Shown: positions 5-10,659 of the stretch, in pieces | How the letters are laid out: every line of letters begins with the position of its first letter | Numbering within the stretch: position 1 is the stretch's first letter | Assembly: GCF_000714715.1 (NCBI RefSeq) | Contig: NZ_JMFO01000005.1 | Location: 124,001-188,000 of the forward strand | Source: Candidatus Magnetobacterium casense | GTDB taxonomy: Bacteria; Nitrospirota; Thermodesulfovibrionia; Thermodesulfovibrionales; Magnetobacteriaceae | DNA: 64,000 nt | Reading direction: 5' to 3' | Position numbers and translations under genes: made by a program | The notes under the pieces: model-generated | What the model was told of the DNA's origin: nothing | Database searches by the model: none | What the model saw: the letters and a program-made list of their open reading frames with translations, nothing else

Positions 5-3000
5 ATGTCTCACGATAAAAACATTATACAAAACACCCTGCAGGACATGCGCAAACACCTGCTTGACTTATCGTCCCGGAACCGATTACTCAAGTACCAG
101 CACTCCAAACGTCACGGCATCCGGTTTGTGGATAAACCAAACCTCGATGTGCTCTTTGATCAGCTCGTCAATAACAGGAAAAGTATCCCGATAAGATGCG
201 TGCCAAGACCCCAGGCCTATGAGGGACAGAGACCCGAAGTTGAGCAGTACGCCCAATCTGTCGGTATAGACACGGATTTTGACTTCAACGTCTCCTGCTG
301 CTCTGACGTAAAAACCGGTGACAACACAGAGGTCCGGGCACTGCTGTACCCCGATGAGCTTGAGGGTATTTGCAAGGGTATCAGGACAAAGGCACAGAGC
401 GCACTTGAGGAAACCGGCACCAATATGCTCTACCTCATCTTTGGCTTCCTCGAATTTTACGAAAGCGACACCAGCAACAAACCCATGAATGCCCCTCTGT
501 TGGCAGTGCCTGTCTCTCTGCAAAGGGGGAGTATCGACAACACCACCAGGTGCTATCAGTACAGCCTTGTATACTCCGGTGAAGACGTAAATGAAAACTA
601 TACGTTGCGCGAGAAACTACAGCAAGACCTGACGTTTCACCTACCAATGTATTACGAGGAGGACCTTCCCGGGGCCTATTTTAATGAGATCAGGGATGCC
701 ATCAGGGGGATGAAACGTTGGAATGTCAGGTGTCAACTGACCCTTGGATTTATCTCTTTTGCCAGGATGATAATCTGGGATGACATAGACCCGCAAAAGC
801 ATCCCGAACTCTTGGACCATGAGATAGTCAAAAATGTGTTATCAGGGTGCGGATGCTCCGGCGATTCTATGAGTCTGTTTGCCGAAGATTACGAAATAGA
901 CAAGCATCCACAATCCGACCTGCCGCTGATCTACGACGCCGACTCCTCACAACACAGCGCCATCATAGATGTCCTCTCTGGCAGAAACATGGTTATCAAC
1001 GGCCCCCCCGGCACCGGAAAGTCACAGACTATTACAAACATCATCGCAATGGCACTGAGACAAGGAAAGACTGTCCTGTTTGTATCCGAAAAGCTGGCCG
1101 CCCTGGAAGTCGTAAGTCGTCGCCTGGAGCAGGCACAACTGGGGCACTTCTGCCTTGAACTGCACAGTGCAGCCACTAATAAACAAAAGATACTCAAAGA
1201 CATCGAGGCCCGTCTCAACACAAAGTTTCAACAACCACAACAGCTACAGACAAAAATAAACACGCTCATCCAACACAAGAACACCCTCAACAGACACGCC
1301 GCACTGATGAACCGGGTTGTCGGTAACAACCTGGGACTATCGGTGCATGATGCGTTTTGGCGCCTGGAGCGTTTCAGGCGCTCCGTCGGTGACCTGTCGG
1401 ATTGCGTCGCACACATGTCCATGCCGGAGGCCACCGCATGGTCACCGGAGGAGCTTGACGGTCGCCGCCGCAGCCTTGAAAACCTGGGACGATTGTTTAA
1501 GGAGATCGGCAGGTTTGATTGGGGGCATCCGTGGTGGGGGTTTTCACCGGGGCTGCTTATCTCCGGCGATGATGCCATGATCGGTAGGGGCATCGCTGAA
1601 ACCATTGCCCTGGCTGAGAGGCTTTCGGAGCTGGTGAGGCACTATCAGGAATTCATCGGCGCCCCCCAATCGCACGACATCAAGACAATGGAAACAACCC
1701 TGACGCTCATCGATGCAATACCGCAACCACCAGGTAACTGCATCGGCTCACTTTTGCCGGGCTTCTTTCCCGAAAACGACCCCCACGGGCAAGATAGTCA
1801 CAGGGTGATGCAAGAGGTCTGCTCCGAGGTGTTGCGCGCCAGGGCGTTGCTGCAACAGGCCGATAATGACCTGCTACCGGGTGGTGACATCGATATTGAG
1901 CGAGTTCCGCAGATACTGAGCAGGGGTGAAGAAACGCTCGCCCCCGAAGCCCTGATGCAAGACCTCAATTGGCTCCGGATGCGGGTCAGTAATGCCGTCA
2001 CATGCCTCGAATCCTTCACGGGAGCCATGGCTACACCCGTTGCCTGTGATGCCCCGGCACAAAACACCGCAGAAGAAATCGACAGACTCATTGCCGCCGT
2101 TGCACCCCTGGAGGTCTCCGACATCCCAATCAAGACCCTCAACCGTGAGGCACAGGCCATCCTGAGAGAGCTGGATGCGTTGACCACCGTCTTTGCAACC
2201 ATAGAGGATATCGCCAAACGCCGAAAGTTGCCATTTGATGGCTCACAGACCGCAATAGCAAACCTTGCCAACCTAAAAGACGTACTCGTTAAACAGATAG
2301 ACAGGGAAACCTTAGACAAGGTCAGAGGCGCTTCAGAGTATGTCCTGTCAGGACTCTCCCTGTATGATATCGATGCCGCCCGGGAGCGGCTCGGTGAAAT
2401 CGTACACGAAATTAAACAGACAACCGATGAGTTTCAGGCATTATCACTACAGGCAGGTTTGAGGTTTGATGCCACACCACGGGCAATTGTCCGTATCTGC
2501 ACGTTGGCGGGGATAGCTGAAAAAGCCCCTCTTGACATACTAACCTCCGGCAAGGCCCCTTTTGGGGCGGAGAGGTTTGACAGAATACTTCAGGATGCCC
2601 GCAAGCAACAGCAAGAGATACTTGCGCTACACAGGGGGCTTGACGCACTGTTCTACCTCAAACCATTCCCTGACCCCACACAACTCAAGGATGCAATCAG
2701 GGTGTTCAGGAGGGGGGATAGTTCCTTCAACTTTCTCAGCAGACAGTGGCGACAGGCAAAGAGGTTTTTCAAAGACCTTGCAAAACATAAGGTCAGGCAC
2801 ACCGCCGAGGAATATGCCAGAGAACTGTTTCGCCTGCAGACCCTCTATGAGCGCTCTGCCGCCTTTAGCAACAACGACGAGTACAGAGAGGTCTTTGGTG
2901 GACTGTTCAAGGGGCTTGGCACCAACTTTGACGACATTGCCAGGCTACATGCCTGGTTCATTGAAGGCTATCAGGAGCTAAATAGACACCCCGAGCTGAT

Positions 3001-5884
3001 TGACAGCGTTGACCTTGCAAAGCTAACCCCCAGGACAATACGTCGGCTTGCAGCCATGAAGGGGCATTTCGACAAACTCGCTCAACGCCTCGGACAGTGC
3101 AGGCTGGAGATAAACGGTATATTCAACGAACATGCCTCCAGACTCGACACCTTGTTAAGAAATGCCGGGTGGGTAAAATATACCGAGGCGGTTCAGAAGC
3201 ACATAAAGAATCTCACTGGCATCGTCACCTTCCTCAAGGGATTTGTCAGCCCCTCCGTGTCTCCAAAGCGGGCGTTTGAACTGCTCAGTGCCAGGCTGGA
3301 ACTCCAGGATAGCGCCGGTGAACTGAGTTTGCTTGCTTGTGGCACGGATGGCATTGCCGAGGCCGGCGGACAGACGTTCAGAAAACTTCCTCCCCTGGCA
3401 GGGCAGTCCTGGGGGGTGTATCTGCGGCAGAGTTGGCGCCTTGCCGCTGATGTAGAGAAGCTGTGCAGGTATCTGTCGAGGCTTGTTGCCATAGAGGCCA
3501 CACCTGCCCAGGTCTCGGACTTCATACGTATGAAGCTGGCCCTGGAGGGTGCATTGTCAGGGCTTGTAGCCCCGGCGGACTTATCCTCAGTGACGGGGTG
3601 GGAGGAATATCTCGTGCGTACCTCGGACATTACTGGTGGGGTGATGGAACTGGTCTCCCTGCTGTATCCGATAGCCAGACCGGACAAATCTCTCAGGCAG
3701 GTCATCGATGCCATGCAGAGACGCCACGAGGCAGAGACGATACTACAGCGCATCAGGGGCAACGCCGAGGTTTGTGACCTCCTTGGCGATGCATTTAACG
3801 GGGCATCTACGGATAACGACGCCCTGGAGGCCACTCATCGCTGGGGGGTGGCCGTCACGGAGGCCCTGGACAGGCACTCAAGGCATCCCGGAGTGGGGCA
3901 ACCAAGTTTTGCACATGTGCGGGCAAGGCTGCTCTGCGCAGAGGCACCTGAAAACCTGCAGTTCTTAATGGGACATATCCCGGATGTCGTTAATACCTCC
4001 AGGGCGATTCAGGATACGCTGGCCGACAGACTCCGCAGTCATGGGACATTCACCTGGCAGATATGGCAGGAGGGTAGCAACGCACCTGATACCGCCGACG
4101 GCATCCTGAGCCGATTGCAGAGAGCCTACGAGTGCATTGACTCATTACTGCCCTGGTCAAGATACCTCGCCGAACAAGCCAGATGCACGGAGGCTGGCCT
4201 GGGGGAGTTCGTGACACTGTTGCAGGGGCATACGTTGCCGCCTGACTCTCTTGGCAACGTGTTTGAGTTTGTCGTCTGCCGTTCGGTTACCAGGGGCATC
4301 TGTAGTGCCTTGCCGGAGCTTAATAGCTTCAGCGGTGTCATGCACAATCAAACGGTGTCTGAGTTCATCAGGTGTGACAGAGAACTCATCGCCCTTAACG
4401 GAGAGGCGCTGGCCTACGAAATCGACAGACTCAAAAATGTCCCCGACGGCACCAAAGGCGACAAGATCACCGAAAAGACCGAGCTATCTCTCATTTGCCA
4501 TGAGCTTCCCAAGAAGAAACGCCACCTGCCCATCAGGCAACTTATCAGACAGGCAGGGCGTGCGATCCAGGCATTAAAGCCGTGCTTTATGATGAGTCCG
4601 CTCTCCATAGCCCAGTACATTGAGCAGGGGGCGGTGGAATTTGATCTCGTGGTAATGGATGAGGCCTCACAGCTTCGTCGCGAGGAGGCCTTGGGGGCTA
4701 TCGTGCGCGGCAAGCAGTTGGTCGTCGTCGGAGACCCCAAGCAACTGCCACCAACCAGTTTCTTCGACCGGGTGCTCGGCGACAACGACGACGATGATGA
4801 CAGTGACACCTCTGCGGTGCTGGTGGGAACGGAGAGCATCCTGGATATTTGTCAGCAATCATTTCATCCTGTGAGGTCGTTGCGCTGGCACTATCGCTCC
4901 AGGCACGAGTCGTTGATAGCGTTTTCAAACCACCATTTTTATGACGGCAGACTTGTTGTCTTTCCGGCGCCCTTTGAGCGACACGAGGCCATCGGTTTAC
5001 GCAACAACCACCTACCCGACGGGGTGTATCTCAACCGTCGAAATGAACCGGAGGCCGAACGTGTTGTCGATGCCATCATTGAGCACATGATCGGGCACAA
5101 GGAACGCTCACTGGGCGTGGTGACCCTCAACCAGCCACAGCGTGAACTTATCGATGGCCTGCTGGACAGGCGCCTGCGGGAGATGGAGGGCGGAGAGTCT
5201 CTTCGCGGCTACTGGGAGAACATCGGGGCGCCATTCTTTATCAAGAACCTTGAAAACGTCCAGGGGGATGAGCGCGATGTCATATTCATATCGACGACGT
5301 TTGGCAAGGTGCCGGGCACGAATAAGGTGGCACAGAGGTTTGGTCCAATTAGCAGCGGGGAAGGCTGGCGTCGTCTTAACGTCCTGTTCACCCGTGCGCG
5401 CTACAGGATAGAGCTGTTTACGTCGATGTATCCTGAGGACATTGTCCTTGATGCAAAGACTCCGGCAGGGGCCAGGGCACTGCGGGATTATCTGGAATAC
5501 GCCAGGAGCAGGGTGCTGTCAACTGCGGGGGTCAATGAGCGTCCACCCGACAGCGACTTTGAGATAGCCGTGGGTGAGTTGCTCAGGGCAAACGGCTATG
5601 AGATCGTCCCCCAGCTTGGCGTAGCGGGCTTCTTTATAGACATAGCGGTTCGTAATCCGGACAACCGTGGAGAGTTTCTGGCGGCAATCGAGTGCGACGG
5701 AGCCGCCTACCATAGCAGCAAGTCAGCCCGTGACCGTGACCGTATCCGTCAGGAGATACTGGAGTCCCTTGGATGGCGTGGGCGCATTTGGAGGATATGG
5801 TCAACCGATTGGTTTTATGACCGTCGCAAGGAAGCTCAACGTTTGCTGTCATTCTTAAAGGAGTGCCGGGGCAGAAAATATTGA
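5..5884 (+). CDS. DUF4011-type superfamily 1 helicase with C-terminal nuclease domain
   Basis: The protein has 1959 residues. Its N-terminus resembles DUF4011 (motif LLDLSSRNRLLKY near residue 20). Walker A GPPGTGKSQT is near residue 333. About 1200 mostly helical residues follow, then Walker B DEASQ near 1552, GDPKQLPP near 1576, NVQGDERDVIFIS near 1751 and LNVLFTRAR near 1789, as in UvrD/Upf1-like DNA/RNA helicases. The last 110 residues (about 1848-1940) contain AIECDGAAYH and a trailing RIWSTDW, typical of a Vsr/DUF559-like endonuclease fold. It is likely a nucleic-acid translocase coupled to cleavage. Proteins of this architecture are linked to anti-phage defence; that role is inferred here. 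The ATG lies four bases from the window edge, so its ribosome binding site cannot be judged. It reads intact and has no obvious operon partner in view. Confidence 0.9.
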   Translation: MSHDKNIIQNTLQDMRKHLLDLSSRNRLLKYQHSKRHGIRFVDKPNLDVLFDQLVNNRKSIPIRCVPRPQAYEGQRPEVEQYAQSVGIDTDFDFNVSCCSDVKTGDNTEVRALLYPDELEGICKGIRTKAQSALEETGTNMLYLIFGFLEFYESDTSNKPMNAPLLAVPVSLQRGSIDNTTRCYQYSLVYSGEDVNENYTLREKLQQDLTFHLPMYYEEDLPGAYFNEIRDAIRGMKRWNVRCQLTLGFISFARMIIWDDIDPQKHPELLDHEIVKNVLSGCGCSGDSMSLFAEDYEIDKHPQSDLPLIYDADSSQHSAIIDVLSGRNMVINGPPGTGKSQTITNIIAMALRQGKTVLFVSEKLAALEVVSRRLEQAQLGHFCLELHSAATNKQKILKDIEARLNTKFQQPQQLQTKINTLIQHKNTLNRHAALMNRVVGNNLGLSVHDAFWRLERFRRSVGDLSDCVAHMSMPEATAWSPEELDGRRRSLENLGRLFKEIGRFDWGHPWWGFSPGLLISGDDAMIGRGIAETIALAERLSELVRHYQEFIGAPQSHDIKTMETTLTLIDAIPQPPGNCIGSLLPGFFPENDPHGQDSHRVMQEVCSEVLRARALLQQADNDLLPGGDIDIERVPQILSRGEETLAPEALMQDLNWLRMRVSNAVTCLESFTGAMATPVACDAPAQNTAEEIDRLIAAVAPLEVSDIPIKTLNREAQAILRELDALTTVFATIEDIAKRRKLPFDGSQTAIANLANLKDVLVKQIDRETLDKVRGASEYVLSGLSLYDIDAARERLGEIVHEIKQTTDEFQALSLQAGLRFDATPRAIVRICTLAGIAEKAPLDILTSGKAPFGAERFDRILQDARKQQQEILALHRGLDALFYLKPFPDPTQLKDAIRVFRRGDSSFNFLSRQWRQAKRFFKDLAKHKVRHTAEEYARELFRLQTLYERSAAFSNNDEYREVFGGLFKGLGTNFDDIARLHAWFIEGYQELNRHPELIDSVDLAKLTPRTIRRLAAMKGHFDKLAQRLGQCRLEINGIFNEHASRLDTLLRNAGWVKYTEAVQKHIKNLTGIVTFLKGFVSPSVSPKRAFELLSARLELQDSAGELSLLACGTDGIAEAGGQTFRKLPPLAGQSWGVYLRQSWRLAADVEKLCRYLSRLVAIEATPAQVSDFIRMKLALEGALSGLVAPADLSSVTGWEEYLVRTSDITGGVMELVSLLYPIARPDKSLRQVIDAMQRRHEAETILQRIRGNAEVCDLLGDAFNGASTDNDALEATHRWGVAVTEALDRHSRHPGVGQPSFAHVRARLLCAEAPENLQFLMGHIPDVVNTSRAIQDTLADRLRSHGTFTWQIWQEGSNAPDTADGILSRLQRAYECIDSLLPWSRYLAEQARCTEAGLGEFVTLLQGHTLPPDSLGNVFEFVVCRSVTRGICSALPELNSFSGVMHNQTVSEFIRCDRELIALNGEALAYEIDRLKNVPDGTKGDKITEKTELSLICHELPKKKRHLPIRQLIRQAGRAIQALKPCFMMSPLSIAQYIEQGAVEFDLVVMDEASQLRREEALGAIVRGKQLVVVGDPKQLPPTSFFDRVLGDNDDDDDSDTSAVLVGTESILDICQQSFHPVRSLRWHYRSRHESLIAFSNHHFYDGRLVVFPAPFERHEAIGLRNNHLPDGVYLNRRNEPEAERVVDAIIEHMIGHKERSLGVVTLNQPQRELIDGLLDRRLREMEGGESLRGYWENIGAPFFIKNLENVQGDERDVIFISTTFGKVPGTNKVAQRFGPISSGEGWRRLNVLFTRARYRIELFTSMYPEDIVLDAKTPAGARALRDYLEYARSRVLSTAGVNERPPDSDFEIAVGELLRANGYEIVPQLGVAGFFIDIAVRNPDNRGEFLAAIECDGAAYHSSKSARDRDRIRQEILESLGWRGRIWRIWSTDWFYDRRKEAQRLLSFLKECRGRKY

Positions 5885-5974: not shown

Positions 5975-7054
5975 TTATTTAAGTATCCCCTCCAGGGAGT
6001 CTTCGTTTTCCTGCATCCACAGGGCTATCTCCTGTACAATGTCCGTGGCGTAGCGTTGGGGACGCCACCCGGTGACGGCTGTGACCTTTGAGTGGTCGGT
6101 TAGATATATCGGGATGTCTGCCACCCTGTCCTGCATTACGCTGTCTATCTCTACGATGTTGCCAGTAAATCGCTGACACGAAGACGTCAGTTCCCTCAGT
6201 GAAAGGCTTATTTCCCTGCCACCGCCCACGTTGTATGTCTGACCAACGTGTAGGTCTATGTTGCGTATCTGCATATCAATGAGGTCGCAGAGGTCATCGA
6301 CGTGCAGGATGTCCCTGACCTGCTTGCCCTGCCCACCAAACCCAAAATATGCCAACCGCTGTCGCCAAAAATGCCTGGCCACCCAGTGGACAACGATTCC
6401 CTGGTCTACCTTGCCAAACTGCCAGGGGCCGGTCAATACACCGCAGCGGTTTACAACACCTTTGATGCCGTACATATCGATGTACTCATGCAGGAGCAGT
6501 TCTGATGCCAACTTGGTTGCCCCATAGAGTGAACGCACCCCCTCCAGCGGGAAAAGCTCGTTAAGCCCCCTGCGCGATACACCGGGGACGGTTTGTTCGT
6601 CGGAGAGTTCAAACCGGGTCTCTGTATGTTCTATATTCAACCGGTTGATAGTCTTAATGGGGTAGACCCTGCTGGTTGAAAGAAAGATAAAGATCACCGG
6701 GTGAGGCATCCTGCGGGCAAGTTCGAGGCAGTTGATTGTGCCAACGAGGTTGGTGCCGATAACGTACTCAGGCGATGAATTATATCCGGCAAGAACGGAA
6801 GGTTCTGCCGAACACTCCAGTATCAAATCAACGTCGCCAACGCTGTTGAGGTCCTCCTGGTTTCTGATATCGCCGTGGACAAACTCCACACCCCAAGACC
6901 TCAGTCGGGTGACATTGAGTTCGCTACCCCTGCGTTTGAGATTATCCAGGCAAGTGATCTTAAGCTGCGGGTAGCGCCTCCTGAAATTTATAGCAAGCGA
7001 ACTGCCCACAAAACCACACCCTCCGGTGAGCAGCATCCCGTTCATCGTCATCAC
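5975..7054 (-). CDS. NAD-dependent epimerase/dehydratase (extended SDR, CDP-paratose 2-epimerase-like)
   Basis: The 359-residue protein is an extended short-chain dehydrogenase/reductase. The nucleotide-binding motif GGCGFVGS is near the N-terminus, the acidic CLDNLKRRGSE segment matches the second beta strand, and the catalytic YGATK (YxxxK) lies in the middle. The overall sequence resembles CDP-paratose/CDP-tyvelose 2-epimerases, which isomerise nucleotide sugars for O-antigen or exopolysaccharide; the exact sugar cannot be read. The GTG start overlaps the stop of the export gene by four bases (GTGA), so the two are translationally coupled. This fits a small polysaccharide unit. Confidence 0.88.
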   Translation of the reverse strand: MMTMNGMLLTGGCGFVGSSLAINFRRRYPQLKITCLDNLKRRGSELNVTRLRSWGVEFVHGDIRNQEDLNSVGDVDLILECSAEPSVLAGYNSSPEYVIGTNLVGTINCLELARRMPHPVIFIFLSTSRVYPIKTINRLNIEHTETRFELSDEQTVPGVSRRGLNELFPLEGVRSLYGATKLASELLLHEYIDMYGIKGVVNRCGVLTGPWQFGKVDQGIVVHWVARHFWRQRLAYFGFGGQGKQVRDILHVDDLCDLIDMQIRNIDLHVGQTYNVGGGREISLSLRELTSSCQRFTGNIVEIDSVMQDRVADIPIYLTDHSKVTAVTGWRPQRYATDIVQEIALWMQENEDSLEGILK

Positions 7055-9817: not shown

Positions 9818-10446
9818 TTACCAGCTTGGGGGTTTATGGATTGTGCTGTAGGGTATGGGGTCTGGGAGCTGTGAGGTTGATAAATGCTTTTCCTTTATAG
9901 GTTTGATAAAGTCTGCGCATTCCTGTAATTGCTTGGATTTGTTCTTAAATTTCCAGGGTATACCGATACCTATAACCTTGTGTCCGTGATGATGCTTTAC
10001 AAGTTTTATAGCTCCCGTCAGGTCGCTGTCATTTGATACTACAAAGGCAGTGTCGTATAAATCTAACCAGGCATCGTTTAACAGTTGTATCGCAAGATTA
10101 ACATCAGAGCTTTTTTCTTCAGTCTTTATAACATATTCAAAGGCTTTATTGGGTATTGGGTTAGAAAGAGGTAAACAAACTTTATGGGAGAGAAAATAAC
10201 CATAGTATATCTCTATTTCAGTAATGTATGTTTTTAATGCATTAATATATGTTGTTTGCCGAGCAAGCCGACTCTTGTCACCTCTTTTGCTAACTAAAGC
10301 TGTAAAGTATTTTATCGAAACAATCTTATCTTCAGGCTTTAAGAGTTTACTACACAGTGATTTAAAATCTATCCATTTATATGGAGTAGCATTTACTGCG
10401 CCATAATAGAAATTACATCCGTCTATATATACAAAAACACGATTCA
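9818..10446 (-). CDS. NYN domain protein (LabA/DUF88 family, PIN-like nuclease fold)
   Basis: The start was set at MNRVFVYIDGCN because the beta strand with the first conserved Asp begins there; a longer frame to 10546 adds an unstructured leader. Key motifs are YIDGCNFYYG, the central VSNDSDL and GHKVIGIG, which together form the NYN/PIN-like acidic centre. Family members are putative RNases or regulators. Base composition is noticeably AT-rich relative to the flanking genes, suggesting acquisition. It stands alone, with about 195 bases upstream of the M28 gene holding only a short CCGGTAAAACCGG palindrome. Confidence 0.85.
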
Positions 10447-10659
10447 TAAATGGATACTGCCAGTCGAAAAACACAGAAGCCGTTGTCTCCAACGGCTTCA
10501 TAACCCTGAGGTCGAAACAACAGGGGCGATTTAGCTTTTTCATCACTTCATATTTATATTAAACCACAGTGGTTGGGTGATTGTCAAGCACTTTTTTTTT
10601 GCAACCTGAAAAATTTTTCTGTAGCTCAGACATGATTGCCCTGTTGTCAAGTTCGCAGC

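Follow-up and report, generated by a model that had tools for sequence, protein, structure and literature searches.

A candidate stand-alone anti-phage helicase-nuclease of the Hhe clade in Candidatus Magnetobacterium casense

The gene and the layout of its protein

The window, the whole stretch of 64,000 nucleotides analysed here from Candidatus Magnetobacterium casense, opens with a single intact reading frame at 5-5884 on the forward strand, which by the ORF list and its translation encodes 1,959 aa. Translation bore out the coordinates of an earlier sequence-only reading, with an ATG at 5 and a stop at 5884. In genome coordinates the gene starts at G000:C5:124005, and the open frame runs over 1,979 codons from stop to stop; a TTG lies in frame 15 codons 5' of the ATG, outside the window, so the ATG is a putative start. 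Given an intact 5.9-kb frame with domain matches, the gene is not a chance reading frame. Its features, and the gene that converges on it from the right, are as follows.

5..5884, + strand: DUF4011 helicase-nuclease gene, 1,959 aa
59..619, + strand: DUF4011 domain, residues 19-205, 119.8 bits (Pfam)
950..1174, + strand: first half of RecA1, AAA_19, residues 316-390 (Pfam)
1001-1030, + strand: Walker A motif GPPGTGKSQT, residues 333-342 (alignment)
1202..4504, + strand: almost all-helical middle region between the RecA1 halves, residues 400-1500 (model and conservation)
1925..2419, + strand: middle block 1, residues ~641-805 (alignments)
2666..2785, + strand: best-conserved 40 residues of 561-1440 (888-927), near the predicted arm tip (conservation)
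3080..3259, + strand: middle block 2, residues ~1026-1085 (alignments)
3380..3604, + strand: middle block 3, residues ~1126-1200 (alignments)
4625..4759, + strand: second half of RecA1, AAA_11, residues 1541-1585 (Pfam)
4649-4669, + strand: Walker B motif VVMDEAS, residues 1549-1555 (alignment)
4835..5410, + strand: RecA2, AAA_12, residues 1611-1802 (Pfam)
5558..5857, + strand: MTES_1575 restriction-endonuclease-like domain, residues 1852-1951 (Pfam)
5975..7054, - strand: NAD-dependent epimerase gene, convergent right-hand neighbour, not part of the system (Pfam)

The sequence-only reading had described a DUF4011 domain, a split superfamily 1 helicase and a Vsr/DUF559-like nuclease. The first two stand, while the nuclease label gives way to MTES_1575, which scores 114.3 bits against a Pfam gathering score of 38.2; DUF559 is absent among the Pfam matches of the protein at E ≤ 0.001 and is matched weakly in two relatives (L051 and L068). 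The same reading took the Walker A, the DEAS box and the nuclease Asp/His region to be intact, and all the motor motifs together with D1879, E1896, D1898 and H1903 are indeed in place. Across the 30 rows of the Hhe clade defined below, 22 positions in motor and nuclease were checked, and at every one the window protein carries the commonest residue. The Q motif, Walker A, Walker B and motifs III, IV, V and VI have key residues that are invariant where present (27 to 30 of the 30 rows), and the four nuclease residues are kept in 30/30. With a Q motif and motifs I, II, III, IV, V and VI the protein classes as an SF1B (UPF1-like) helicase. What the locus holds is one intact protein in which, besides DUF4011, both the SF1B motif set and the nuclease site are complete.

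Genomic neighbourhood

Upstream and divergent from the gene are a TorD-like gene, a 78-aa frame and NrfD; downstream and convergent are the epimerase gene and a polysaccharide-export gene, and further on rpsG and fusA. The sequence-only reading had asked for a look at the upstream genes and named placement inside a housekeeping DNA repair operon as evidence against a defence role. We reject such an operon here, since the gene is flanked by TorD/NrfD genes and by polysaccharide genes, which on either side lie on the other strand, and a Pfam scan of 18 neighbours contains no repair gene.

The TorD and NrfD genes (L023, 3997-5878, - strand) lack adjacent Fe-S and catalytic subunits, and are apparently a headless molybdoenzyme operon as far as gene content tells. 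At the corresponding loci of two relatives, G012 (L074) and G009 (L179), an Fe-S subunit and a molybdopterin catalytic subunit, both roles read from sequence, are followed by TorD and NrfD; these loci show the whole molybdoenzyme operon, without the junction to the epimerase. The window gene occupies the position of the operon head seen there. Elsewhere in the window genome the best matches to the missing subunits have 27% identity (catalytic) and 45% (Fe-S). Loss of the operon head could be independent of the gene's arrival. In two genomes of the same genus (G001 and G002) the epimerase gene is retained with a second epimerase beside it, and searches of G001-G003 found no TorD, so that no simple empty site is demonstrated in the same-genus genomes; G011 has a weak TorD match.

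PADLOC finds no established defence gene among 17 neighbours of the window gene. An NYN-domain gene (window 9818-10546, - strand) matches HEC-09 with 153.8 bits, and a 56% identical relative of it lies in G012, ~7 kb from the TorD gene. The mad2 model is matched with 77.1 bits by a PrmC-like methyltransferase, probably housekeeping, whose gene lies 5 kb upstream. Two TIR-domain genes and then a TPR gene lie 6-8 kb upstream (L022, 11657-13805, - strand); the TIR genes have weak to moderate PADLOC matches, to PDC-S66 and bSEFIR.

Family placement

At least 579 DUF4011 helicase-nuclease relatives were confirmed in one scan, and the best 80 of them were kept. In total 119 family ORFs including that of the window were collected, of which 115 were aligned and 112 entered the tree after short, duplicate and half-empty rows had been dropped. 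Outside the tree are two truncated relatives: L078, a close match (51% over residues 8-562), and L053 (5872-8511, genome G397), with 46% identity over residues 7-847, which stops at 879 aa near a contig end.

In the 112-row tree, built on 551 columns of motor and nuclease, the window protein and Klebsiella Hhe share a clade of 30 rows (SH-aLRT 100), inside which the window protein belongs to a 7-row clade (SH-aLRT 100) with L075, L076, L050, L077, L155 and L082, which we call its sisters. A more careful tree of 50 rows supports both groupings at 100/100 and joins the window protein with L075 and L076 at 94/85. The closest by identity over the tree columns is L075, at 68%.

Profile scores draw the boundary differently. 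Against NCBIfam Hhe (NF042953) the window protein scores 1356.9 bits, below the equivalog cut-off of 2000, and against NCBIfam ProA (NF058533) 1122.4 bits, below the cut-off of 1500; the positive controls were Klebsiella Hhe, with 2732 bits on Hhe, and a Raoultella plasmid ProA-type protein, with 2223.8 on ProA. Hhe proper and ProA proper are rejected, both cut-offs being missed. Because the tree placement is 100/100 but the cut-offs are missed, the protein is, by tree and profile scores, an Hhe-clade relative and not an Hhe equivalog. The name Hhe, which the sequence-only reading had given, is thereby right at the level of the clade but does not extend to Hhe proper.

The defence-system profile search which that reading had proposed returns strong matches in PADLOC, the best to the candidate model PDC-S37 (1236.9 bits), and 948.5 bits to Hhe. 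Klebsiella Hhe scores 1266.1 on PDC-S37 and the ProA-type control 1180.8, about the same, hence this broad model does not separate the branches and we reject PDC-S37 as a separate identity. A literature search on PDC-S37 found no paper. PDCs are described as putative single-gene candidates, most of those in the core set of that paper still awaiting validation (PMC12988326). Other papers list 'Gao Hhe' among the defence systems of V. europaeus (PMC13249269) and report deletion of hhe from ECOR17 as a candidate defence system (PMC9391042).

The window protein has in common with Hhe (NCBIfam NF042953; PADLOC PDLC02194) the DUF4011 domain, the split SF1 motor, the MTES_1575 nuclease, the single-gene arrangement and the clade, and is ~34% identical to Klebsiella Hhe over 1,640 aligned residues. 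It differs in lacking a 61-residue insertion found after residue 101 of Klebsiella Hhe, in having extra middle blocks, and in ending right at the nuclease, whereas Klebsiella Hhe continues for a 123-residue tail, which is missing from several other Hhe-clade rows too. With ProA it has the DUF4011, SF1 motor and nuclease core in common; the ProA-type control (L070) is longer by ~357 residues at the N-terminus and 246 at the C-terminus, and the trees place it outside the Hhe clade. Hhe itself was reportedly shown by Gao and colleagues to protect against phage.

Motor, middle arm and predicted structure

Among the nearest motors by sequence in solved proteins are SMUBP-2, SEN1, UPF1 and DNA2. The window protein has the motor motifs of these SF1B helicases on either side of its split; unlike in them, Walker A is followed by ~1,100 residues before the conserved stretch that leads up to Walker B, and a nuclease is fused at the C-terminus. 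A predicted model of residues 1-640 (23 rows, mean pLDDT 73.0, pTM 0.47) is best over ~11-270, mostly 80-95, and structure alignment of this model pairs the RecA1 half of the window protein with IGHMBP2 at Z = 5.4 over 92 residues, with an rmsd of 3.7. Foldseek finds nothing for the same model at E ≤ 0.001, and since the structure alignment hardly probes DUF4011, we assign that domain to no solved fold. The nuclease gives chance-level matches only when compared with solved sequences.

The model of residues 400-1560 (22 rows, mean pLDDT 74.7, pTM 0.37) is almost all helix. In a second structure comparison distant segments pair symmetrically about one centre, for example at 10/1077, 107/987, 246/826 and 318/752 in model numbering, where the ranges are first and last aligned residues only and all rows are below Z = 8. 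We infer from this an out-and-back helical hairpin with its tip near protein residue 935, on account of the end-residue ranges, the Z scores and the low pTM as a predicted shape only. For the middle model Foldseek ranks MukB, Wadjet JetABC, condensin and Smc5/6 highest, at TM values no greater than ~0.08; apart from two MukB rows (MukB E = 3.3e-6, TM 0.08), none passes E = 0.001. With such a TM and no structure row at Z = 8, we claim for the modelled arm a general resemblance to long coiled-coil arms and no kinship with them. Residues 888-927 are the best-conserved 40 between 561 and 1440 (25 rows) and lie close to the predicted tip, in a modest peak, both ends of the middle region being better conserved. 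Profile comparison of middle pieces suggests internal repeats, ~945-1020 versus 1245-1316 with a probability of 95.7, a score that helical composition may inflate.

Variable parts within the branch

Middle block 1 is common to L075, L076 and L053 and mostly absent in other Hhe-clade proteins, being partly filled by L091 and L104 in one alignment. Middle blocks 2 and 3 are common to L075 and L076, and in the other alignment, which has 115 rows, no row apart from L075, L076 and the window protein fills half or more of each. The third block taken singly is often partly filled in other members there, so the block boundaries depend on the alignment.

A GreA/GreB C-terminal domain is found at the end of 5 of the 6 sisters (L076, L077, L155, L082 and L050); the window protein and L075 have no such tail. 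All 5 tails scanned alone exceed the Pfam gathering score for the domain, although L050 scanned whole falls just below it (25.5 vs 26.9). A profile of the sister tails matches solved GreA and Gfh1, and when run over the 119 family ORFs it recovers those five plus L093 and L131; in these Hhe-clade proteins the Gre-like domain is fused behind the nuclease. Judged by these matches, the tails suggest contact or docking with RNA polymerase. In a narrow literature search, judged by titles and abstract openings, none of the papers listed concerns a Gre-tailed Hhe. Other members add other parts: L047 (2716-8742), from the same family as the window genome, has N-terminal ankyrin repeats ahead of DUF4011, and L054 and L092 carry DUF3320. 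Since members add Gre-like tails, ankyrin repeats or DUF3320, the family core looks, from domain content, like a chassis with changeable extra domains.

Defence genes beside the sister proteins

Strong PADLOC matches lie near 5 of the 6 tree sisters, as listed here.

L075 neighbours: HmaA 1455.7 bits, HmaB 392.8 bits
L076 neighbours: IetA 338.5, IetS 886.9, AbiEii 372.3 bits
L077 neighbours (Wadjet): JetC 1494.5, JetA 682.4, JetD 459.1 bits
L155 neighbours: type I MTase 849.6, REase 161.9 bits
L050 neighbour: type IV restriction enzyme (mREase) 331.9 bits

The origin of the name Hma is given in PMC8565338. The 20 sister-neighbour ORFs behind the 5/6 count were hand-picked from the listed neighbours (45 within 5.5 kb, some further out), and the picks beside L075, L076, L077 and L155 were chosen for defence-like appearance, a selection that bears on the count. 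Control ORFs from L072, L074 and L179, also hand-picked, have 0/10 matches at E = 1e-5 in PADLOC. Beside the sixth sister, L082, an ORF matches MzaA with 257.3 bits over 244 residues. We left it out of the count, since NCBI assigns its MzaA model to the sigma-70 family and the product of the ORF may be an ordinary sigma factor. Near the truncated L053 there is no more than a weak PADLOC match (28.2 bits).

Distribution

Some match is found in 9 of 18 other genomes of the family, some of them incomplete, and a long relative in 1 of 18 (G014). Matches in G001-G003 are distant and cover the motor only, with ≤34% identity over ≥400 residues and up to 42% over short Walker A stretches. Of 395 genomes sampled from the phylum, a hand count gives 61 with a match of any strength and 12, the window genome among them, with a match above 200 bits. 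Searching the genome contigs with the window protein alone gave 6 stretches and no relative, and megablast gave no match in E. coli genomes. Plasmid matches number 432 of 72,556 records, none over 80% of the query, with 221 of the 432 predicted conjugative; phage matches number 2 of 50,697.

The gene was probably acquired by horizontal transfer: a solitary gene, with missing operon partners beside it and a long match in 1/18 family genomes, fits an acquired gene and not a repair operon. Composition adds little, since its GC of 0.544 lies within the range of 32 other genes (mean 0.498, sd 0.049; 3/32 as high) and its GC3 is ordinary (14/32 as high). For P. aeruginosa, PMC10250203 describes a large DUF4011 gene as a conserved flank of core defence hotspot 1 in every isolate; this gene suggests that such proteins need not all be accessory genes.

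Interpretation

The reading that we favour, with a probability of about 0.7, is that the window protein would act against phage on its own, as a single-protein effector of the Hhe clade whose gene probably arrived by horizontal transfer. A defence function as such is very likely from homology and context, given the clade placement, best PADLOC and NCBIfam matches that are candidate or named anti-phage families, and sisters near defence genes. Against the favoured reading stand the RNA helicases among the solved relatives of the motor, the result that none of the 17 PADLOC-scanned neighbours is an established defence gene, and the core DUF4011 gene of P. aeruginosa. The substrate is likely DNA rather than RNA. 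As for mechanism, the DUF4011 part and the long helical arm may recognise or clamp invading DNA, such as free ends or branched or actively processed phage DNA; ATP hydrolysis would then let the motor travel along this DNA, which the MTES_1575 nuclease, being tethered, would cut or nick. This order of clamping, translocation and cutting is tentative.

A host DNA repair or recombination helicase-nuclease, Dna2-like and with no direct anti-phage role, is unlikely. It would account for the relatedness of the motor to DNA2 and SMUBP-2, for a large core DUF4011 gene in P. aeruginosa (PMC10250203), and for an ORF near L050 that, by its sequence alone, resembles a UmuC-type polymerase, but 0/18 of the Pfam-scanned neighbours are repair genes, presence within the family is patchy, and it is restriction or other defence genes that lie near 5/6 sisters. 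Decay offers a different account of the solitary gene beside an incomplete operon, as a silent remnant of a mobile element; with one intact 1,959-aa frame and 22/22 checked catalytic and motif positions kept, this is very improbable.

The presence of UPF1 and SEN1 among the nearest solved motors, and of tails on 5/6 sisters that suggest RNA polymerase contact, could instead point to an RNA-directed helicase-nuclease attacking phage transcripts or R-loops. We consider this improbable as well, the nuclease domain being restriction-endonuclease-like and the window protein having no Gre-like tail. The same tails allow a more speculative scheme of transcription-coupled attack on DNA, for which we would give long odds: a split motor with an SMC/Rad50-like out-and-back arm, whose conserved tip would sense or clamp DNA, might find phage DNA by its heavy transcription, with 5/6 sisters docking on RNA polymerase through the GreA/GreB-like tail and the window protein as a tail-less form relying on its enlarged arm.

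Significance

Under the favoured reading of an Hhe-clade anti-phage effector, the window protein lies, by its tree position, on a distinct branch of an already known family. DUF4011 helicase-nucleases are widespread, as the size of the confirmed set indicates, and the open-licence literature searched gave no account of how they recognise phage. What is new in this branch are the extra middle blocks common to two or three relatives, the predicted helical arm, and the Gre-like tails that most sisters have and this protein does not. The conserved stretch near the predicted arm tip and the GreA/GreB-like tails of the sisters provide two handles on phage recognition, and the tails make docking on RNA polymerase directly testable.
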